Virus record (IMG/VR): IMGVR_UViG_3300038715_000034 | Span: 1-32,413 of that record | Reading direction: 5' to 3' (one strand) | DNA: 32,413 nt | From: a virus | Shown here: positions 74-28,546 of the stretch, piece by piece | Numbering within the stretch: position 1 is the first letter of the stretch | How the letters are laid out: every line of letters begins with the position of its first letter | The notes under the pieces: generated by a model | The model's input: only the letters and a program-made list of their open reading frames with translations | Databases searched by the model: none | Told to the model about the DNA's origin: nothing | Program-made: the position numbers and the translations under genes

Positions 74-746
74 GTCCTTTTTTGGTTGCATCTCTTATTG
101 TATTATCTATCTGTACACATTTTTCCCATTCTTCTGGTAGTTTTTCTTTTATCTCCTTCCAGTTCTTATCACTATGATATGGGCAAAATACACAACTTGA
201 TTTAGGTGGTATTGGAAATTGAAATCTTTCAAATATTTTTATACAATCTCCTCTACTCATCCTTTGATCTATTAATGGGTACACATAATCTATTCTAGGT
301 AATTGACTTACTTTCATTCTTTGTATTTCATCCAATGTAATACCTAACCACATTTCTGTTTTAGGCATCCTTTGTCTTGGCTTTAATCCATGTAATTCTC
401 TTACCTTTTTTATTACTGGTTGAATCTTATACTCACCAGTACATTGTCTCTGTATCATACCACCACTTTCAGAAAAAGCTGGTATAGCCGCCCACTTAAC
501 ACCTCTTGAATTTTGTGCCTTCATTGTATCTTGTAGTAGATTTCTTTCATTGGTAACATGAATTGGTATGCCATCATTTAAACTTGCCCAATCTTGTAGA
601 TATTCAAGTATCTCATAAGTTCTTGGAAGTTCTGCACCAGGATCAGCAAATACTGCATGGTCTGCTCTTTCTATTATATTCTTACTACTCATCATGTACA
701 TTGCTGTGCTTTGTACACCCATTCCTAAACTAATTACTTTTAACAT
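1..746 (-). CDS. PP-loop ATPase, PAPS reductase-like (main part)
   Basis: This is the N-terminal and central part of a 259-residue protein. The rest lies at 32307-32340 across the circular seam. It opens with a modified PP-loop, S-L-G-M-G-V-Q-S, followed by a second strand ending in F-A-D-P-G-A-E, as in the PAPS reductase/adenine nucleotide alpha hydrolase superfamily. These enzymes adenylate a substrate using ATP, often for sulfur transfer or base modification. A C-V-F-C-P-Y-H motif about two-thirds along and a C-E-E-G-F-C-G-L tail suggest bound metal or a redox thiol pair. Its ATG overlaps the TAA of the preceding nuclease gene (TAATG), so translation is probably coupled. Related proteins are common in phages. 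The substrate is unknown, and a role in nucleic-acid modification is only inference. Confidence 0.85.
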   Translation of the reverse strand, partial: MLKVISLGMGVQSTAMYMMSSKNIIERADHAVFADPGAELPRTYEILEYLQDWASLNDGIPIHVTNERNLLQDTMKAQNSRGVKWAAIPAFSESGGMIQRQCTGEYKIQPVIKKVRELHGLKPRQRMPKTEMWLGITLDEIQRMKVSQLPRIDYVYPLIDQRMSRGDCIKIFERFQFPIPPKSSCVFCPYHSDKNWKEIKEKLPEEWEKCVQIDNTIRDATKKGLDDKLYLHRSLVPLERIEFADQQE

Positions 747-1132
747 TAGCTAAACTCAGGAAACCGTTCATATGAATAGAACCACTTCCTACCTTTTGTT
801 TGATTGTTCTTACCAGTTGTCAACGCAAGACTCAACGCATGTTTGTTATCATATGGATAGTATGCAATTATATCTTTAGGTAAAAAGTACACTGCAACTA
901 CGTCAATACGATTAGTATCTTTATATTTAGTAAGGTTTACCTCTACTGCTGTGCCACGTTTTAATGTCATTACTGTTTTAATTTGTACCTTTTTCATACT
1001 ACCACTTTTTAATTCTACTATAAGGTCAACTTGATCAACATCTACTACTGGCGCGTAAATATTATATCCTTGCCGTATCAAATCTTTTTGTACCGCAAGC
1101 TCGCCAAGTGCGCCTTTGTTTAGACTATGCAA
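746..1132 (-). CDS. PD-(D/E)XK endonuclease, I-Ssp6803I-like family
   Basis: This is a 128-residue protein if it starts at the TTG at 1132, which has GGAG seven bases upstream. The open frame extends further upstream, but that part lies wholly over the preceding gene. The order of motifs is K-G-A-L-G-E-L-A, a G-Y-N-I-Y-A-P-V strand, D-Q-V-D-L-I-V and then V-Q-I-K-T. These give the E, D and Q-x-K residues of a PD-(D/E)XK active site. The spacing resembles the family (PDDEXK_5 in Pfam terms, from memory) that includes the group I intron endonuclease I-Ssp6803I. It overlaps the previous gene by 8 bases and the next by one. It could be a free-standing homing endonuclease, a restriction-type nuclease or a recombination nuclease. 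The link to the capsid introns is conjecture. Confidence 0.7.
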   Translation of the reverse strand: MHSLNKGALGELAVQKDLIRQGYNIYAPVVDVDQVDLIVELKSGSMKKVQIKTVMTLKRGTAVEVNLTKYKDTNRIDVVAVYFLPKDIIAYYPYDNKHALSLALTTGKNNQTKGRKWFYSYERFPEFS

Positions 1133-1592
1133 AAAGCAACTCCATGGGTTGTAGCTGACTTTGCTCCATAATATATTTAGGACCATAACCCATATCCTGC
1201 ATATTGACCTGTTGTAGTAAGTCCTCTGATTGCGCACCGCCAAGTATTGTGAAGCGTGGAAATGATGCATGCACTAGTATAAAAACATCACAATCGCTTG
1301 GGTTTTTTTTGGTTTTAGCTTGTAAGTATCCTGGATCGTAAGTGGTTGTTTTAACGTCAACCTTCTTACCTTTGACTTTGAGGTCGTAACCACTAAAGTG
1401 TGGTCCAATACTAAGGTCGGGGTATCTATTAAAGTATTTACATACTGCAATCTCGCCACCTGCACCATTGATGTCAGGTTCGAGTTTGCGCGGTCCGCGT
1501 GAGATCACTCCATTGGTCTGGTTCTGAAGCATTCTCGCTGTTCCTGTCTGCACCGCTATCTGCGCTTCCAGGTAGTTCAGTGTTATTTGCAT
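1125..1592 (-). CDS. Phage PD-(D/E)XK-like nuclease, unnamed family
   Basis: This is a 155-residue frame. From about residue 44 it reads G-A-G-G-E-I-A-V, then G-Y-D-L-K-V-K-G-K-K-V-D-V-K-T-T. This gives an E, D, D-x-K arrangement typical of small PD-(D/E)XK nucleases. D-V-F-I-L-V and a late F-T-I-L-G-G-A strand follow. The ATG at 1592 has GAGGAA eight bases upstream. An inner ATG at 1532 also has an AGGA site and would shorten an unusually long overlap (119 bases) with the upstream gene. It sits between two other PD-(D/E)XK candidates in the recombination/replication operon, so a role in DNA processing or host DNA degradation is plausible. The substrate is unknown. Confidence 0.7.
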   Translation of the reverse strand: MQITLNYLEAQIAVQTGTARMLQNQTNGVISRGPRKLEPDINGAGGEIAVCKYFNRYPDLSIGPHFSGYDLKVKGKKVDVKTTTYDPGYLQAKTKKNPSDCDVFILVHASFPRFTILGGAQSEDLLQQVNMQDMGYGPKYIMEQSQLQPMELLFA

Positions 1593-2080: not shown

Positions 2081-2458
2081 TTATAGTTTAGCGGGGTCAC
2101 GACTATCACGATCATTAGACACGCCATTTTCGGGTTCATGGGTTTCTAAGACCCCGCTATTAAATAAATTCTTCATCCACTCATGCTTGACTATCCACAG
2201 CCAAGGCTTTCTATCTTGGCGGACCATAACTACGTCCGCATTCTTAAAATCTAAAAATCCTGCAATCTTTTTTCTGCGCTTAACCTGCACACGAATCGTT
2301 AAGTCTCCTTTAGTGGCCTTAACATCAATATCACTTTTCTCACCAAAGCTACGACCATCACTACCCCAACTGCGTTCGGCTATGAAGCCGAGATCGCGGA
2401 GCAGTTCAACGACCTCGACTTCACCTTTGTAGCCTTTTCGGGATGCGGAAGAAGGCAT
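2081..2458 (-). CDS. Hjc-like Holliday junction resolvase (PD-(D/E)XK)
   Basis: This is a 125-residue protein. It opens R-K-G-Y-K-G-E-V-E-V-V-E-L-L, continues through G-F-I-A-E-R-S, then S-D-I-D-V-K-A, and closes the active site with V-Q-V-K-R-R-K-K. The E, D and Q-x-K residues and the basic strand after them match archaeal-type Hjc resolvases and their phage relatives, which cut four-way junctions during recombination and before packaging. The length is normal for the family. Its ATG overlaps the SSB stop codon (TGATG), implying coupled expression with SSB. The C-terminal 25 residues are polar and probably disordered. Another PD-(D/E)XK nuclease with a different target cannot be excluded. 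Confidence 0.75.
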   Translation of the reverse strand: MPSSASRKGYKGEVEVVELLRDLGFIAERSWGSDGRSFGEKSDIDVKATKGDLTIRVQVKRRKKIAGFLDFKNADVVMVRQDRKPWLWIVKHEWMKNLFNSGVLETHEPENGVSNDRDSRDPAKL

Positions 2459-2958
2459 CAGAAAGGTAGCTCTTCCTCGCCTTCCGCTGTTGGCGTACTC
2501 TCAAAAACCTTGTTTGGTTCGTAGGTTTTTTTAAAATCTGCCAACGCACCTTTAACTTCATCAGTAATAGGTGCTTTAGGACATGGTGTGGTAGTATAGG
2601 TAGTATCCATACCATCACCACTACGTGTAACAATAACATCATAATCAGTCAGGTTGCCCCACTCAGAATTACGATCCAACTCTGTTAACTGCTTTTGCAC
2701 AGTGCTTTGAGTTACATCCAATACTTTAATAGAATGACCATCCCACACTGGTATCTGCCAAAAGTGTTTTGGCTTCTCACCTGCGGGTGCTTCACCTGCT
2801 GTTTTGATGCGAACTGGCGTACGATCATCCTGCCAGTATTGGTATCCCATTACTGGTGTATCTAATATTCGGAATCTGTTTTCGCCTTTGACAAATTTCA
2901 TAAAGCTACTCTCACCAGTGCTTGGCACATCGTAGGTAGGCTCTAGTAGTCCACTCAT
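2458..2958 (-). CDS. ssb: Single-stranded DNA-binding protein
   Basis: This is a 166-residue protein that coats single-stranded DNA during phage replication and recombination. It starts at an ATG with AAGGAG five bases upstream. The body contains F-M-K-F-V-K-G-E-N-R-F-R-I-L followed by strand-rich segments with aromatic residues (Y-Q-Y-W, H-F-W-Q-I-P-V-W). It ends in an acidic stretch closing E-E-E-L-P-F, the usual SSB tail that recruits partner proteins. The fold looks like the phage SSBs related to T4 gp32 in arrangement rather than E. coli SSB, since the N-terminal OB-fold signature of the latter is absent. The resolvase gene follows with overlapping codons, which fits a replication-recombination operon. 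Confidence 0.75.
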   Translation of the reverse strand: MSGLLEPTYDVPSTGESSFMKFVKGENRFRILDTPVMGYQYWQDDRTPVRIKTAGEAPAGEKPKHFWQIPVWDGHSIKVLDVTQSTVQKQLTELDRNSEWGNLTDYDVIVTRSGDGMDTTYTTTPCPKAPITDEVKGALADFKKTYEPNKVFESTPTAEGEEELPF

Positions 2959-8794: not shown

Positions 8795-9191
8795 TTTGTT
8801 TCTTTATGTCTTCTTGTTGGAGTGCATTAAATTCTTCATCTATAGCCGAAAAGATGACTAAACGGTGATAATCTGCTTCATCTATGGTATTTGCCAAAGA
8901 TAGATTAAATCGTTTCATAGCCATGTACTCCTCAAGCGTAAATATAGTCTCAGGCGTTAAAAAGTACGTTGAGTCGGCACAGAATACTAATGAATGATAT
9001 AACGCAGCACCAAGCGTAAATTTTCCATCTTTGCTTTCATCTACAATACGCCATATCTCATTCCACAGTTCATCTTCGTCATACGTGATGGTTTTCTTTA
9101 GCGTTGGAGACTGCGCTTGGTATGGAAAATGCAAGTTGCGACTAGGTTGGTTTCTATAACTCATCCACATCGCAACGCGGTGCATTATGAC
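8787..9191 (-). CDS. Tail assembly chaperone, frameshifted (GT-type) extension
   Basis: This segment is read after a -1 frameshift at 9191-9197 and adds 134 residues to the 87 of the upstream gene, giving a 221-residue fusion like lambda gpGT. It contains an acidic helix, D-E-D-E-L-W-N-E-I-W, and a helical C terminus. These regions are thought to bind the tape measure and tube subunits. The same frame also has an ATG at 9185 in a TAATG junction, so separate initiation is possible, but no good ribosome site precedes it. The slippery site, the following tape measure gene and the frame relation all favour the fusion. No other domain is seen. Confidence 0.8.
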   Translation of the reverse strand, partial: VIMHRVAMWMSYRNQPSRNLHFPYQAQSPTLKKTITYDEDELWNEIWRIVDESKDGKFTLGAALYHSLVFCADSTYFLTPETIFTLEEYMAMKRFNLSLANTIDEADYHRLVIFSAIDEEFNALQQEDIKKQNG

Positions 9192-9451
9192 TTTTTTTGG
9201 TTTACGTCCTTATAAGCATTATAAATAGTCATTAAGATTTCATCAATGACATTGTCATCAAACTTGCCTAATGACTCTTCTGGATTGGTAAATGCGTAGT
9301 TGGTTATCCAATCAAGAACATCAAAAAACTTTGCAGTGTCGATATCACCTTCTTTGGTGATTGCTTTGACTTCTAGTTTATGTAGTTCTCTACGCGCTTT
9401 AAAGGTTATATCTGGTACATCAAATGCACCATGGTCTGTTTTTACTTTCAT
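9185..9451 (-). CDS. Tail assembly chaperone (G-type)
   Basis: An 88-residue protein preceded by AGGATG nine bases before the ATG. It is mixed helix, beginning V-K-T-D-H-G-A-F-D-V-P-D, and carries many charged residues. By position between the tube gene and the tape measure it is the short chaperone (lambda gpG equivalent). Its last codons include the A AAA AAG heptamer followed one codon later by TAA, the normal layout for a programmed -1 shift into the longer product. The short form should be the more abundant. Confidence 0.8.
   Translation of the reverse strand: MKVKTDHGAFDVPDITFKARRELHKLEVKAITKEGDIDTAKFFDVLDWITNYAFTNPEESLGKFDDNVIDEILMTIYNAYKDVNQKKS
9191..9197 (-). promoter_or_regulatory. 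Programmed -1 ribosomal frameshift site A AAA AAG
   Basis: On the minus strand the codons are CAA AAA AAG TCA TAA. The heptamer A|AAA|AAG fits the X XXY YYZ rule exactly in the frame of the short chaperone. Slipping back one base leads into the frame V-I-M-H-R of the downstream segment, which stays open to 8787. Its position, at the end of a tail chaperone and just before the tape measure, is classical. Confidence 0.9.
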
Positions 9452-12717: not shown

Positions 12718-12800
12718 CTGCGTTTCATCTTTTTCATCATTTTATTTTTCTTCTTTCTACCTTTCTTCTTCTTCTTACTGTGTCCTTTATGATATGGCAT
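12714..12800 (-). CDS. Tiny lysine-rich protein (28 aa)
   Basis: A 28-residue peptide starting M-P-Y-H-K-G-H-S, followed by runs of K and R and ending M-K-R-R. Over half of the residues are basic. Its ATG overlaps the previous TAA (TAATG) and its TGA overlaps the next ATG, so it fits seamlessly in the operon. Such peptides occur in marine phage structural operons. A role in neutralising packaged DNA is inference. Confidence 0.65.
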   Translation of the reverse strand: MPYHKGHSKKKKKGRKKKNKMMKKMKRR

Positions 12801-13048
12801 TATCTTGCACTCCTTACTTTGCTTCTTGTTCTTTTGCTGTATTTAGCGCGTTGCTTACCTCGCTTACTTGCAGCGCGCTTTAGCCTATTCTCATAGGCTC
12901 TCTGTGATTTTGTTAATCCTTTGCGGACACTGGCAGGTAAATATCTACCACGTTTCCTACGTGGTTTCTTCTCATCGCCTTTTGTGACATAACCCCAATC
13001 CTGCCTTGTCCACTTCTTTAAACTTCGCTGTGATTTTTTAAGTGCCAT
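12800..13048 (-). CDS. Basic protein with KKWTxQxW motif (82 aa)
   Basis: A very basic protein with L-K-K-W-T-R-Q-D-W-G near its start, then G-R-Y-L-P-A-S-V-R-K-G-L and a tail dense in K and R. The pattern K-K-W-T-x-Q-x-W plus R-Y-L-P recurs in marine phage proteins of unknown function. Its ATG overlaps the TAA of the shifted frame of the upstream gene (TAATG at 13048). It is probably a DNA-binding virion or packaging accessory protein, judged by charge and position. Confidence 0.7.
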   Translation of the reverse strand: MALKKSQRSLKKWTRQDWGYVTKGDEKKPRRKRGRYLPASVRKGLTKSQRAYENRLKRAASKRGKQRAKYSKRTRSKVRSAR

Positions 13049-13243
13049 TACTTATATCCACCACCTGCTTTCTTATATGCTCTTGCTAATAATTGCGCCT
13101 TCCGAATGTCGAGCTGACCATTGGCCAGCTCTACCTCCTTTTGACCCAGCCTTAATTCGGTAGAACAATCTTTTACGAAGCGTTGGCTTGGTGTAGTTAC
13201 CCGCTTCGTTGACTCTTGATTTTCTTCTTTTCTTTTTCTTCAT
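13048..13243 (-). pseudogene. Conserved basic mini-protein with a frameshift
   Basis: The frame from the ATG at 13243 reads N-E-A-G-N-Y-T-K-P, then K-A-G-S-K-G-G and G-Q-W-S-A-R. This is the start of a small phage family (I associate it with DUF5872) that usually continues K-A-Q-L-L-A and ends A-G-G-G-Y-K. Here the frame turns to H-S-E-G-A-I and stops at 13073. The expected ending (R-K-A-Q-L-L-A, then K-K-A-G-G-G-Y-K) is present one frame over and stops at 13048, overlapping the next ATG. One extra base near 13105 explains it. It may be a mutation, an assembly error or a +1 recoding site. Confidence 0.75.
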
Positions 13244-13413
13244 TTACCCACCTTCCTCATCGCACTTGTATGTGATTGACTAAACGTAGCTCCTCTTCGC
13301 ATTGCTGCTACCATAGAGCGTAAGTGCTTTGCAGTGTGATGTCGTGCATGTCTACGCATTGCAGCTACCTGACGTTTACTTAATCCTGTTACACTAATAC
13401 CTTTAACTTTCAT
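13240..13413 (-). CDS. Basic mini-protein (57 aa), SHxxAM family
   Basis: Starts M-K-V-K-G-I-S-V-T-G-L-S-K-R-Q, then histidine- and arginine-rich M-R-R-H-A-R-H-H-T, ending F-S-Q-S-H-T-S-A-M-R-K-V-G-K. I recall similar proteins in marine phages, but no function is known. Its TGA overlaps the ATG of the frameshifted gene (ATGA). The high H, K and R content again suggests nucleic-acid contact. Confidence 0.7.
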   Translation of the reverse strand: MKVKGISVTGLSKRQVAAMRRHARHHTAKHLRSMVAAMRRGATFSQSHTSAMRKVGK

Positions 13414-13414
13414 G

Positions 13415-13714
13415 TTAGCTCCATTTTACTCGATTTGCCCAGAAGGCTGCGCTCATGCGACCTTTCGCAATGTTCTTAGCATGTCTCGCCTTGAACGATC
13501 TGCGCTTTGCCTTCATCCTTGCTGACTCACCTTTACGTGGTTTACCTGCGGTTTTAGCACCTTGCTGACCAAAGCGTATCAACTTATATCTGTTACCAGA
13601 CTTTGCCATTACTACGTGTGACTTAGTCTTATGTCCAGGAGTACGCTTTGGTTTGTTTACCCCGCGCAGGCCTAACCTACGCATGGTTGCTCTGACTCGC
13701 GCAGGTACTGCCAC
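13415..13714 (-). CDS. Basic conserved phage protein (99 aa)
   Basis: A strongly basic protein from a GTG start that overlaps the previous TAG. Conserved-looking elements are N-K-P-K-R-T-P-G-H-K-T-K-S-H, then I-R-F-G-Q-Q-G-A, then K-A-K-R-R-S-F-K-A-R-H and a closing M-S-A-A-F-W-A-N-R-V-K-W. I associate this with the DUF6321-like proteins of marine and cyanophages, which are of unknown function. The S-F-K-A-R-H and W-A-N-x-V-K-W elements may form a small metal-free fold. It is first of the run of five basic genes. Confidence 0.75.
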   Translation of the reverse strand: MAVPARVRATMRRLGLRGVNKPKRTPGHKTKSHVVMAKSGNRYKLIRFGQQGAKTAGKPRKGESARMKAKRRSFKARHAKNIAKGRMSAAFWANRVKWS

Positions 13715-13890
13715 TATAATCCTATTTTTTTAAGTAGCACGCTTTTAATTACTTTCCAGAGTGCTTCTAAAATTGCCTTCTCAGTTTTTTCAGAGATAAT
13801 TGGTATATCAACTGCTTTATTGATTTCATCAATGATTTCTTCACCAGTTTTGTCGGATAGTAATTCATCCGCTATCATTTTCATTAACAT
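13714..13890 (-). CDS. Small hypothetical protein (58 aa)
   Basis: Helical, with an acidic front (A-D-E-L-L-S-D-K-T-G-E-E) and a basic, hydrophobic C terminus (W-K-V-I-K-S-V-L-L-K-K-I). It follows the holin-like gene by one base and its stop overlaps the next GTG. The amphipathic tail could associate with membrane. Nothing further identifies it. Confidence 0.6.
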   Translation of the reverse strand: MLMKMIADELLSDKTGEEIIDEINKAVDIPIISEKTEKAILEALWKVIKSVLLKKIGL

Positions 13891-13891
13891 A

Positions 13892-14029
13892 TTATTTTCC
13901 TTTTTTTATGTTCATTACTAATAAAATTATCGATAACAAAGCAACAACCACTTGTAATAACTCATGTACTTGAGTTAATCCAATCGCGTAGTTACTAAAA
14001 CTGATTGCTGCTATTTTTAAACTGTCCAT
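13892..14029 (-). CDS. Holin-like single-span membrane protein (45 aa)
   Basis: A 45-residue protein with one transmembrane helix, V-V-V-A-L-L-S-I-I-L-L-V-M, and a positively charged end, N-I-K-K-G-K. A short N-terminal amphipathic part precedes it. This is the layout of small phage holins, which form pores that release endolysin. Its ATG overlaps the TGA of the previous membrane gene (TGATG). The lysozyme-like gene lies about 1.2 kb downstream in the same operon. The call rests on size and topology. Confidence 0.55.
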   Translation of the reverse strand: MDSLKIAAISFSNYAIGLTQVHELLQVVVALLSIILLVMNIKKGK

Positions 14030-14322
14030 CAATGCCTACCATTTGTTAATTTTGCTTTTATAAAAGATAAATCATCGCTGATTTCTCGCCAAAATTCTTC
14101 TCTTTTTTCGTCACCTCTGTTCATACGATCCACTAATTTAATAGATATATTTTGTATGTTTGCAATTTGAGTTTCTATTTTGCTAATAGATTGCTTTATA
14201 GATTCTAAATCTTCGCTTTGCTCTTTCTGGCTTTGTATTAGGTTATAAATCATAAAACCAAATAGAACTGCAATAAATCCTGCTGATCCTAACTGTAAAT
14301 ATAAATCTGCTATATCAGTCAC
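14029..14322 (-). CDS. Membrane-anchored coiled-coil protein (97 aa)
   Basis: GTG start with AGG eight bases upstream, overlapping the previous stop. An N-terminal transmembrane helix (G-F-I-A-V-L-F-G-F-M-I-Y) is followed by a long charged helix with heptad-like hydrophobics (S-I-K-Q-S-I-S-K-I-E-T-Q-I). The architecture fits an inner-membrane spanin or a BhlA-type holin. Spanins fuse inner and outer membranes at the end of lysis. It cannot be assigned more closely. Confidence 0.5.
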   Translation of the reverse strand: MTDIADLYLQLGSAGFIAVLFGFMIYNLIQSQKEQSEDLESIKQSISKIETQIANIQNISIKLVDRMNRGDEKREEFWREISDDLSFIKAKLTNGRH

Positions 14323-14608
14323 TGTCTTTACCTAATACCTTGTCTAATAAACTCTTATTCATCTCTGCTAATCTTTGTTCTCGTTCTGCTTCTAATGGAT
14401 TCATTCTTTCATCTAAGTTTTGTTCAAATTCTATCAACGCTTCTTTTATATGTTCTATTTCTTTTGCATTACTTTCTATACTTGCATTAATTGTAAACCA
14501 TGCACCAGTAAGTGTGAACACCAAAAACAATATCTGTACCGCCCATTTAACTGATATGTGTATCTGTAATTCATCGTTTAATGTTTTAGTTTTCAATTCT
14601 TTGTACAT
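14315..14608 (-). CDS. Membrane-anchored coiled-coil protein (97 aa), second
   Basis: It opens with Y-K-E-L-K-T-K-T-L-N, then a transmembrane helix, V-Q-I-L-F-L-V-F-T-L-T-G-A-W-F, then a charged coiled coil (E-H-I-K-E-A-L-I-E-F-E). Topology matches its neighbour at 14029-14322, so the two may be paralogous partners, holin/antiholin-like or spanin-like. The start is uncertain: a TTG six bases earlier is possible, and neither has a good ribosome site. It overlaps the upstream gene by 23 bases. Confidence 0.5.
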   Translation of the reverse strand: MYKELKTKTLNDELQIHISVKWAVQILFLVFTLTGAWFTINASIESNAKEIEHIKEALIEFEQNLDERMNPLEAEREQRLAEMNKSLLDKVLGKDSD

Positions 14609-14831
14609 CCTCAAATTGGTTATGCAACCAACACCAATTCTGCGTAGGATATAACCTATCGTAATAATAATGGACTACTGAATCAGTACCCATTATTTCT
14701 ATGAACACTGTATTGGAATCACTAGGCGATATTTGCCACCCCGCAACACTCCAACCACCAGAACAATTAAGACTGGAAAGTGTAAGTAACAGAAATATCA
14801 TAAGATGTACTAATTTCATAATCCACTTCAT
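14586..14831 (-). CDS. Possible lipoprotein, o-spanin-like (81 aa)
   Basis: A signal-like N terminus (K-L-V-H-L-M-I-F-L-L-L-T-L) leads to S-S-L-N-C-S-G-G. This is a near lipobox, but with N before the cysteine instead of the preferred G, A or S. The remaining 58 residues are soluble and rich in aromatic residues, including W-C-W-L-H. An outer-membrane spanin partner for the neighbouring coiled-coil proteins is possible. Alternative ATGs lie at 14819 and further in. Confidence 0.45.
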   Translation of the reverse strand: MKWIMKLVHLMIFLLLTLSSLNCSGGWSVAGWQISPSDSNTVFIEIMGTDSVVHYYYDRLYPTQNWCWLHNQFEDVQRIEN

Positions 14832-14840
14832 AATTTATTT

Positions 14841-15131
14841 TCATAATACTATCCACCAGGCTATGGCAGTTTCTACGATAATATCCGCAATAGTATTATA
14901 TGCCCATCGCCTTTTACTGCCATACGGTTTCCAATTCTCAATATAATATTCAAATACTTCCCATAGTACGCCAACAATAAAAACTCCCATAACGCACCAA
15001 AAGTTAGTCCAACCCCACCACTGGAATATTTTGCACAGAAACGCACCCGCAGCAATGTGGTATGAGGTCCAACCATCTAACTGGCCAGTCTTGAGTTGCC
15101 ACGATACTAGCTTTGATAAAGGACTATTCAT
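14841..15131 (-). CDS. Multi-span membrane protein (96 aa)
   Basis: A hydrophobic protein with two to three likely transmembrane helices. One is around C-V-M-G-V-F-I-V-G-V-L-W-E-V-F-E-Y-Y and one at the C terminus, I-V-E-T-A-I-A-W-W-I-V-L. An H-I-A-A-G-A-F segment and the W-E-V-F-E-Y motif are reminiscent of small VanZ-like or DUF2238-like membrane proteins. It lies in the membrane/lysis cluster with ATGA overlap to the previous gene. A holin role is possible but the charge pattern is not diagnostic. Confidence 0.55.
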   Translation of the reverse strand: MNSPLSKLVSWQLKTGQLDGWTSYHIAAGAFLCKIFQWWGWTNFWCVMGVFIVGVLWEVFEYYIENWKPYGSKRRWAYNTIADIIVETAIAWWIVL

Positions 15132-15418
15132 CGATTAACTACCTTGTTTTCAATAATTTTATGTTTTACAATATCGATGCGCCCATGATTATCTGAATCC
15201 TTTAAAGATTCGCACTGTTTAACGTACTCTTCTTCAATGGTTTTGAAGCTGTCTGATCTTTTAATTATCTCCTCACCTACGCGTAAAAAATACTTTTTAC
15301 TGTTTGGATAGGTTAACGAGAATAGTGTACCATCATTTAGCTTTAAATTTTTAGTCATACCTTGCTTACTATTCAAGTGGATCACAACATCATTATCATG
15401 GGCGCATCTAATAATCAC
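15128..15418 (-). CDS. Hypothetical protein (96 aa)
   Basis: Starts at a GTG overlapping the previous TGA (GTGA). The first half is strand-like (I-I-R-C-A-H-D-N-D-V-V-I-H-L), the second helical and charged. No membrane segment. Gene neighbours are a DUF6447-like gene and a membrane protein. Not recognised. Confidence 0.55.
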   Translation of the reverse strand: MIIRCAHDNDVVIHLNSKQGMTKNLKLNDGTLFSLTYPNSKKYFLRVGEEIIKRSDSFKTIEEEYVKQCESLKDSDNHGRIDIVKHKIIENKVVNR

Positions 15419-15630
15419 TCTTCTTCTACCTCTAGCGATTCTTTTAACATTTTAACAAATGCATCGTGACCTACTCTAAGTTGGTCTGCAATAAACCCAT
15501 TAGATGCCTGTTTGTTTTGTATGTCGTTTATATGATTTACCATCATCTTCTGTTCATCAGTTAAGTCCTCAATGATATATTCTTTACCATCAAGATTAAT
15601 AACTGGCTTTTCTTTTTTTTCTTTAGCCAT
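15415..15630 (-). CDS. Small conserved phage protein, DUF6447-like (71 aa)
   Basis: It starts with lysine-rich A-K-E-K-K-E-K-P, then V-I-N-L-D-G-K-E-Y-I-I-E-D-L-T-D-E-Q-K, then a helix ending acidic (V-E-E-E). The D-G-K-E-Y...L-T-D-E pattern is frequent in small marine phage proteins near tail fibres. The ATG has AAGGAG six bases upstream. Function is unknown. Confidence 0.65.
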   Translation of the reverse strand: MAKEKKEKPVINLDGKEYIIEDLTDEQKMMVNHINDIQNKQASNGFIADQLRVGHDAFVKMLKESLEVEEE

Positions 15631-19829: not shown

Positions 19830-21179
19830 TTACGGATTGTTGAAGTTTACAACTCCAAGTGACGTGCTAGAAGCACCATGTGATAAAGACGCACCGAACA
19901 AAATGTCCGCGACCACAGATGTCAAATGTTCCATTAGGCTTTTTATCCTAAATCTCAAACTTTCGTTCGAGTATCGGCATATCTTTTCATCTCGTAAGAT
20001 GGCGCGGTCTCGTGGGAGAATTATTTCATCTCCTATGCTCTGCCCCTGACTACACTTCGTGTAGCCTTCGGTTCGGGTTAGCTTATCAAAGGACTTAGCC
20101 TTCCCGCTTAATACCGCACTAATAATTTGCATAGTCACCTACGCAAACGCCAAATTAATAGCTAGGTGGTCAATGTCGTAGGCCGACTGCACTCTAGGTG
20201 CAATCTGCATAGCCATGTACACTGCTTCTTTTTTGAATATGGACGCTGTTTCGTCTCCACTTCCACCATCATCATCCCAGTCTGTGCTGATAAAGGATTC
20301 CATTCCATAAATCATTCCTACTCCACCAGACACATTAGGATTTTGAGCGTCACCTCTTTGAGATGAGTCAAAGAAGTCTTGAAGACCTAACAAACTCATA
20401 TATGCAGCAGGAGAAGCATACAAGTATGTTTCACCATCAGCATAGTCAAAGCCTGCATCAAGCAGTTTTTGCAAACCACTACGTAGCAACGCAGAGGTTA
20501 TGGTATTATCACTTGATAAACTTACATCATTACCAGTTGCAGACTGAAGTACGTCTACTGCCAAGTAGTTTTCAACCTTTTTAGCCAAGGCATAACCCAT
20601 AGATTGTGCATAAGCTCCAAAAAGATTTGCTGATTCCTGGACACGAACAATATCTTCTATTCTCTTCGCTTCATAATGATGTTGATCAACTGTAATAGTG
20701 ACTTCACTATCAGTGTTGTTTTGATACGTTACCGCACTTCCTGCGGATTTTGCAGCAGCAGTTTCCTCTGTTACCTTTGGTATATGAAGCACATCTCCAG
20801 AAGGTAGCTCAGAAGAAAAATCCATCACTTGATTACGCAACTCAAATTTACGTTCTGCATAATCTAGGATAGCATCCCGCCATCAAATGTTACAGTGAGC
20901 TTTTTATCTCACATCTCCACATTTCTATGGAGTATCGGCATATCTTTTCTACTCAGTAAGTAGTTGCGGACTCTTGGATGGATTATATCTTTTCACCATC
21001 TATGCTCTGCCCCTGACTGCGCTAAACGCAGCCTTCGGTTCGGATTGCCTTATGCTATCGCACTTAGGTTTCCCGCTTAATTCCGCAATAATAATGATCA
21101 TAGTTACCTATGAAAACGTCCTAGCGAACTCTGGGATGAATACTGCCGCGGTAGTGGTTGTTACATTACCATCAGCCAT
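19830..21179 (-). CDS. Major capsid protein, split by two group I introns
   Basis: Spliced from 21179-21127, 20883-20160 and 19922-19830, it gives 289 residues and one stop. The ATG has AAGGA seven bases upstream. The first junction restores A-V-F-I-P-E-L^W-R-D-A-I-L-D-Y, a hallmark capsid start. The second gives D-H-L-A^T-S-V-V-A-D-I-L-F-G, the usual ending strand and loop. Without splicing the first reading frame stops within 9 codons of the first junction, and the middle piece has no sensible start. It follows the scaffold gene directly, as in HK97-type heads, and has the largest coding share of the head operon. A terminator follows. Capsid yield should depend on splicing efficiency. Exon borders are inferred from protein continuity and intron structure, with a possible error of a few bases. 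Confidence 0.88.
19923..20159 (-). ncRNA. Group I intron 2 in the capsid gene (237 nt)
   Basis: The 5' junction follows a U (codon GCU) and the intron ends in G (A-C-A-U-U-U-G). P2 carries a GUGA loop. P3 pairs GUGCGGU (20119-20113) with ACCGCGC (20008-20002). P4 is CGGG with CCCG, and the P6 arm is CUACAC with GUGUAG. P7 is GCAUA with UAUGC, P8 is CAUCU with AGAUG, P9 is CUCGAAC-GAAA-GUUUGAG, and P9.2 is UUAGG with CCUAA. A hairpin GGAGA/UCUCC between P7 and P3' is the extra P7.1-like element of subgroup IA. There is no ORF inside. P1 is short with an A-G mismatch. Confidence 0.88.
20884..21126 (-). ncRNA. Group I intron 1 in the capsid gene (243 nt)
   Basis: It follows a U in the F-I-P-E-L codon run and ends A-C-A-U-U-U-G. 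P1 pairs the exon end with GACGUU, leaving a U-G at the cut. P2 is CAUAG-GUAA-CUAUG. P3 pairs UUGCGGA (21088-21082) with UCCGCAA (20970-20964). P4 is CGGG with UCCG, and the P6 arm is CUGCG with CGCAG. P7 is GCAUA (21005-21001) with UAUGC (20942-20938), P8 is CUACU with AGUAG, P9 has a GAAA loop, and P9.2 is GUGAG with CUCAC. UGGCG of exon 2 could pair with CGCUA at the intron start as P10. No ORF inside. The R and S core segments equal those of intron 2. Confidence 0.9.
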
Positions 21180-28161: not shown

Positions 28162-28302
28162 ATGAAACATAATTATTTTGTTCCTTTAGATCATAACAAA
28201 AGTAAAAAAGTCAATAATTTGGATAGGATAGAAAAAACTCTTAGCGCATATGTCAAAATTTGCGCGGTAATATGGATAATACGCGCATGTTTTGGTTTTT
28301 AA
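28162..28302 (+). CDS. Small hydrophobic-ended protein (46 aa)
   Basis: Reads M-K-H-N-Y-F-V-P-L-D-H-N-K at the front and V-K-I-C-A-V-I-W-I-I-R-A-C-F-G-F at the end, a short membrane-affine segment. It has the stereotyped AAAGAGAGGTTAA leader. It overlaps the next small gene by 31 bases. Confidence 0.5.
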   Translation: MKHNYFVPLDHNKSKKVNNLDRIEKTLSAYVKICAVIWIIRACFGF

Positions 28303-28352
28303 TCTATGTTACTTTTGGCATACTTTTTATTTTATGGCATGAACTAGAATAA
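28272..28352 (+). CDS. Tiny single-span membrane protein (26 aa)
   Basis: Reads M-D-N-T-R, then a 16-residue hydrophobic helix (M-F-W-F-L-I-Y-V-T-F-G-I-L-F-I-L), then W-H-E-L-E. It overlaps the preceding gene in another frame and ends 20 bases before a terminator. No clear ribosome site, so it may depend on coupling. Confidence 0.4.
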   Translation: MDNTRMFWFLIYVTFGILFILWHELE

Positions 28353-28372
28353 ACCAAAAACCCAACAAATTA

Positions 28373-28396
28373 ACCCGCATTTATGCGGGTTTTTTT
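28373..28396 (+). terminator. Rho-independent terminator of the rightward operon
   Basis: ACCCGCAT, loop TT, ATGCGGGT, then a tract of seven T. A perfect 8-bp stem. It closes the only rightward transcript. Confidence 0.93.
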
Positions 28397-28546
28397 GTGT
28401 CTAAAATTGGTATAAATTGCACTGTATCATTTTGTTAATGGACAAAATACGAATTATGCGCAATTTTTTAAATGAGCTTTTTGAGCTTTTTTGGTCATTT
28501 TTTTCATCATTATATGGTGAATTATATAGTTATTATATTACCTGGG

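Follow-up and report, generated by a model that had tools for sequence, protein, structure and literature searches.

Two predicted ORF-less group IA introns in the major capsid protein gene of an uncultured virus and the intron family to which they belong

How does a major capsid protein (MCP) gene broken twice within its frame still specify a capsid protein, and how did the interrupting segments get there? The question is raised by a 32,413-base record of an uncultured virus, which was analyzed at its full length (hereafter, the window) and whose minus strand encodes terminase, capsid, tape-measure and tail proteins. Many short overlapping frames lie between the tail genes (12800..15630, minus strand), and at 28300..28472 there is a strong G+C hairpin that resembles a terminator, with a T-run behind it (AACCCGCATTTATGCGGGTTTTTTT); weak matches of leader-peptide RNA families around this hairpin, at 28.3-28.5 kb (Rfam search of the whole window, E<=1), were taken as chance. 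The MCP is coded in three pieces of 53, 724 and 93 nt on the minus strand (21179..19830). In our opinion, the two inserts separating them are very probably ORF-less group IA introns, predicted to splice, of a family whose members have repeatedly invaded, in related phages, about 20 positions of the MCP gene.

The interrupted gene and its uninterrupted relatives

The inserts, of 243 and 237 nt, follow nt 53 and nt 777 of the MCP coding sequence, respectively (Table 1). An earlier note, made from the letters of the window, had described a capsid frame split twice by inserts of these lengths, and had predicted that their removal would give a protein of 289 residues. Indeed, the joined exon pieces form an open coding sequence of 870 nt for 289 aa, with the predicted joins FIPE-L-WRDA and HLA-TSVV, and both introns appear as exact gaps upon alignment with uninterrupted relatives, in agreement with the TTG^ 3' ends. 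The alignment of the spliced product with capsid proteins, recommended in the same note, gave matches to phrog_267 (major head protein, E 2.3e-26), to PF25209 (Phage_capsid_4, 37.4 bits at a cut-off of 27) and to cyanophage MCPs, the latter being at most 32% identical to it.

Homologous capsids containing the inserted segments as protein would have argued against introns; among 80 MCP loci from IMG/VR (73-98% identity), 72 have no insert at all, and relative L003 has the same MCP uninterrupted, at 98% amino acid identity. A 243-nt insert is present exactly at site 1 (CDS nt 53) in L005, L031, L035, L042 and L051, and a 237-nt insert exactly at site 2 (CDS nt 777) in L010 and L042, so that L042 carries both together, as the window does; L079 and L082 have one insert each, at a third site that precedes site 1 by a few codons. 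The reading of the inserts as two group I introns of the MCP gene, with the junctions and lengths originally proposed, is supported.

Table 1. Positions of the MCP exons, the introns and their helices in the window
Feature	Coordinates	Strand	Remark
MCP exon 1	21127..21179	-	53 nt, ATG to ...GAG TT^; preceded by AAGGAATAAAAA
Intron 1	20884..21126	-	group IA (predicted), 243 nt, no ORF; begins CGCTAGGAC, ends AACATTTG
Intron 1 guide GAC	21118..21120	-	pairs with exon-1 end GUU (21129..21127) as P1
Intron 1 P2 hairpin, GUAA tetraloop	21098..21113	-	carries in-frame stop UAG
Intron 1 core	20964..21088	-	covariation
Intron 1 P3	21088..21082/20970..20964	-	
Intron 1 P4	21075..21072/21044..21041	-	
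Intron 1 P5	21068..21066/21050..21048	-	
Intron 1 P6	21039..21037/21013..21011	-	
Intron 1 P6a	21033..21027/21021..21015	-	
Intron 1 P7	21007..21001 (5' strand)/20942..20937 (3' strand)	-	
Intron 1 P7.1	21000..20996/20981..20977	-	
Intron 1 3' part (P8 to P9.1)	20895..20963	-	covariation
Intron 1 P8	20963..20959/20953..20949	-	
Intron 1 P9 (GAAA loop)	20932..20926/20921..20915	-	
Intron 1 P9.1	20912..20908/20899..20895	-	
MCP exon 2	20160..20883	-	724 nt
Intron 2	19923..20159	-	group IA (predicted), 237 nt, no ORF; begins ATTAATTTGGC, ends AACATTTG
Intron 2 guide GGC	20149..20151	-	pairs with exon-2 end GCU (20162..20160) as P1
Intron 2 helices, whole span	19934..20144	-	covariation
Intron 2 P2	20144..20139/20134..20129	-	
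Intron 2 P3	20119..20113/20008..20002	-	
Intron 2 P6	20072..20070/20046..20044	-	
Intron 2 P6a	20066..20060/20054..20048	-	
Intron 2 P7	20040..20034/19981..19976	-	
Intron 2 P7.1	20033..20029/20019..20015	-	
Intron 2 P8	20001..19997/19992..19988	-	
Intron 2 P9	19971..19965/19960..19954	-	
Intron 2 P9.1	19951..19947/19938..19934	-	
MCP exon 3	19830..19922	-	93 nt including stop

Group I structure, guide pairing and predicted splicing

The check with the Rfam group I model (RF00028), suggested in the earlier note, gave matches below the cut-off only: in a 1.45-kb search the model matched both inserts, with 24.5 bits for intron 1 and 16.3 bits for intron 2 (E-values 0.001 and 0.29), but both scores are below its gathering score of 50, and on the whole window the model gave no match at E<=1. 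Six introns of five multi-intron loci scored 22-49 bits (top 49.3, best E 5.6e-10). The gathering score is set by the database and does not define group I introns, the structural traits of which are present. A group I structure of 62 pairs, drawn up for intron 1, was scored in a MAFFT alignment of 41 relatives that took no account of structure and covered about 20 insertion sites. Across these relatives 96.0% of the cells were paired, both sides had changed in 44 of the 62 pairs, and double-changed cells numbered 480 vs 124 in shuffles, none of 500 shuffles being as high; when the partner was slid by 1-3 columns, pairing was only 32-36%. Every helix has changes on both sides, including P3 (6 of 7 pairs) and P7, while P6 and P7 swap as units between subtypes (CC/GG to GG/CC and GCAUA/UAUGC to GACUA/UAGUC, respectively). 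Considering that covariation establishes the structure despite the sub-threshold Rfam scores, it is not a chance fold.

The group I core, the U before the intron and the G at its end, all listed in the earlier note, were found, and to its helices we add P2 with a GNRA loop, P5 and P7.1; the core has P4-P6 and P3-P8, with the P3/P7 pseudoknot. The P7.1 hairpin, located between the 5' strand of P7 and the 3' strand of P3, is 100% paired, and both sides have changed in five of its five pairs; a further hairpin was seen by eye in the alignment in L097, L103, L089 and L120. By established definitions P7.1 (and P7.2) in this place is the mark of subgroup IA, and the intron family was placed there because this hairpin is present. 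Neither intron contains an endonuclease gene, as a homing intron would, and their length of 237-243 nt together with the early stop codons leaves no room for one.

The MCP junctions were placed by protein continuity, the only constraints being a U before the intron and a G at its end; thus, the U was forced, while the G at exon position -3 and the variable base next to it were free. Counts of guides and stop codons exclude the extreme N-terminal sites (HMM positions 5-10) and site 47 of L120 and L390-L392, for which junctions could not be placed reliably by the automatic method; a search at site 47 of L120 without the U/G constraint had the T/G junction among the two best-scoring ones. The exon ends in GNU, and a GNC lies a few bases inside the intron, P1 being as short as 3-4 bp. 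The G at exon -3 was found at 20 of 20 sites, and the variable base is Watson-Crick in 22 of 23 distinct site/guide combinations (shuffle mean 7.9, P ~1e-5, a value that is indicative only, the introns being mutually related). As this relatedness weakens the P value, the case for guide pairing is carried by the occurrence of all four Watson-Crick pairs, seen as GGU/GCC, GCU/GGC, GUU/GAC and GAU/GUC. At HMM position 13, three guides occur at one site, each fitting its own exon. Outside the GNU, flanking sequences from different sites are only 26% identical, i.e., unrelated.

By the established chemistry of group I introns, P7 binds a guanosine that cleaves behind the U, whereupon the released exon is joined after the terminal G. 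In the MCP transcript, the guide GNC would pair with the last exon bases GNU to form a very short P1, the guanosine bound in P7 would attack after the U, and the exon thus freed would attack after the terminal G, resulting in the 289-aa MCP. On these grounds we infer that the introns of the window actually splice, and, as judged from the reading frame, full-length MCP must require it; the control of virion yield by splicing, proposed in the earlier note, would be a further step beyond this requirement. In-frame stops were found 3-33 nt into all 48 of 48 distinct introns, before the catalytic core. Such a stop just inside each intron would end translation ahead of the core, so ribosomes should halt before unfolding it. 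The unspliced message is predicted to give a 22-aa peptide, and a message retaining intron 2 alone, a 265-aa MCP.

The early position of these stops could also mean that the introns are kept as regulators of the MCP, retention of intron 1 yielding 22 aa and retention of intron 2 yielding 265 aa with another C-terminus. This seems unlikely to us, since introns are present sporadically (8/80, 5/80 and 22/43 loci in protein-driven samples of MCP loci), their sites and numbers vary freely, close relatives such as L003 have none, and the early stops may simply shield the core from ribosomes. The weak Rfam scores, in turn, would agree with inserts that stay in the message, either as dead relics in a broken gene or as elements bypassed by ribosomes. 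We consider it very improbable, as the MCP frame is intact in its exons and closely resembles that of uninterrupted relatives, and the core, the U/G boundaries and the guide pairing are kept across many sites; bypass elements, to our knowledge, have no group I core. Finally, an uncultured virus contig could be an assembly artefact fusing unrelated sequences, an explanation that can practically be dismissed, because the same sites with near-identical introns recur in independent contigs of other metagenomes. Introns predicted to splice remain the best reading of both inserts.

Distribution and movement of the intron family

In the orthologous MCP gene, the ORF-less family of about 240 nt occupies about 20 positions, and one or more introns are present in 104 of 272 loci with this MCP, in a sample that was enriched by intron searches and includes some contigs twice. 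L120 and L391 have four introns in one MCP gene each; those of L120 were located by the main method (two), by open search (one) and, for the N-terminal one, only approximately. Scanning with a 17-base motif of the P7-P9 region, which itself comes from MCP introns and does not survey all group I introns, gave 62 loci with profile-confirmed introns. Fifty-six of them are in MCP genes of several sequence families: 42 in this MCP, eight in a distant capsid family (an assignment based on weak Pfam and pairwise matches), five in an SU10-type MCP (PF17236) and one in a phrog_9953 MCP; the rest are in a small terminase-like gene (three) and elsewhere (three). With a looser motif, the family was also detected in tape-measure and other genes. 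The picture is larger than that of the earlier note: both introns are members of a mobile family, one that has invaded many sites in MCP genes.

Several observations were made outside the MCP genes. Over 30 prophage-like contigs (L182, L185, L192, L209 and others) contain a related intron in apparent tape-measure genes, the identity of the gene having been checked for one representative, L182. Besides this relative, L182 has a group I intron at 2334-2552 (minus strand) with 92.8 bits, above the Rfam cut-off. Another relative (139 bits) is located at 5180-5381 of L161, a contig labelled Heimdallarchaeota. A relative in L164 was considered as a tRNA intron and rejected, ARAGORN listing no tRNA gene there. 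Among isolated phages, the intron was matched only in part, at most 64% of it and with 71-74% identity, the matches being to Aeromonas jumbo phages and one Exiguobacterium phage.

Introns at the same site may be far more alike than two introns of one gene. Introns 1 and 2 of the window are 73% identical; the intron at site 255 of L120 is 91.5% like that of L089 and 68.6% like the L120 intron at site 89. Between intron 2 and its counterpart in L091 the identity is 97.9%, whereas 60-nt exon windows around the site are only 65-93% identical. Upstream of intron 2, L010 and the intronless L003 match the window almost equally, but in the 180 nt after it L010 is 100% identical to the window and L003 only 82, 90 and 83%, so the L010 tract looks co-converted. 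Furthermore, the intron of L084 (site 207) is 97.2% identical to that of L089 (site 109) and nests among the site-109 introns in the tree, while the flanks of the two share 7/20 and 9/20 bases. Taken together, these comparisons demonstrate, at the level of sequence, that introns have been transferred between phages and have recently moved between sites.

That a phage MCP gene may contain one group I intron is already known. The MCP intron of mycobacteriophage LittleE, the splicing of which was shown by RT-PCR and protein sequencing, resembles those of the window in its gene, the U before it and the G at its end, but it is 819 bp long, has a predicted endonuclease gene, occupies one site in one of six relatives, and is described only as most likely group I (PMC3706429). 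A capsid-gene intron of Tuc2009 is cited in the same paper (PMC3706429). Mycobacteriophage BAKA, compared by description, also has a small ORF-less intron (265 bp) in a virion gene, although it is a tail gene with one site (PMC3706429). Introns of Bastillevirinae share the IA-like architecture, some genes having two or three of them; however, their mean length is about 800 nt, 32 of 45 carry an endonuclease gene, and they reside in DNA polymerase, terminase, thymidylate synthase and nrd genes, none in MCP (PMC11878797). Jug phages have many short (about 206 nt) group I introns per genome, 37 of 76 being supported by metatranscriptomes, but these are scattered across many genes of huge gut phages with no MCP concentration described (PMC12363816). 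Group I introns of nuclear rDNA are alike in that a single, strongly transcribed gene harbors related introns at many sites, for the new ones of which reverse splicing has been proposed, though the gene is eukaryotic rDNA and not a protein-coding phage gene (PMC1299323). No description of an ORF-less family colonizing one virion gene at about 20 sites was found in the open-access literature, which is weak evidence.

Possible routes to new sites

Two routes, reverse splicing followed by reverse transcription and recombination, and endonucleases acting in trans, were weighed about equally, each being put forward tentatively. By the former, the probability of which falls somewhat short of even, ORF-less introns would multiply at the RNA level, reverse-splicing into MCP mRNA, normally a very abundant late message, wherever G-N-U fits a guide adjustable by one base, and would be fixed by reverse transcription and recombination. 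If true, such spread would account for one gene having about 20 unrelated sites, for several MCP families serving as hosts and for 97%-identical introns at dissimilar sites. In its favor are the tiny target, the matching guide, the unrelated sites, the lack of an ORF and the MCP preference across several families. Against it, no reverse transcriptase (RVT_1) was found in the window or 35 related records (36 in total), the sites lean to conserved protein regions, as with homing endonucleases, and the co-conversion-like tract fits DNA-level homing too.

Homing at the DNA level only, with a comparable chance of being right, would involve free-standing or relaxed-specificity endonucleases that cut the conserved MCP gene in trans, repair then copying an intron that has lost its own endonuclease gene or never had one. 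The position of the sites in conserved MCP regions (P = 0.02, sites grouped by region), the tract beside intron 2 in L010, and the HNH, GIY-YIG or PDDEXK_5 genes of some of these phages point to it, but the sites share only G-N-U, their other flanking bases being as dissimilar as noted above, 97%-identical introns sit at dissimilar targets, and no nuclease is consistently present. HNH, the one family of the two searched in the window record, had no match there, and neither HNH nor GIY-YIG matched in the intron-bearing relatives L035 and L051; homing by HNH, HNH_3 or GIY-YIG enzymes was rejected, as none of them matched in the closest intron-bearing relatives of the window. PDDEXK_5, counted among free-standing homing endonucleases (PMC12363816), is found in 4/20 intron-bearing vs 9/16 intronless records and, being also in the latter, is not associated with the introns. 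A PDDEXK_5 nuclease gene (43.8 bits) is located at 746..1270 of the window (minus strand). In L100, an HNH-like gene recognized by eye (8948-9436, reverse-strand coordinates) directly follows a family intron and is a possible endonuclease partner.

Whichever route is taken, introns of this kind escape standard Rfam scanning, and phage and metagenome annotation may therefore call MCP genes broken or leave them truncated. The MCP gene is a good place to study the movement of such RNA elements, offering one phage gene with about 20 sites and one compact family in small dsDNA phages. With a guide that differs by one base per site and near-identical copies at different sites, the question of how these introns spread becomes directly testable.
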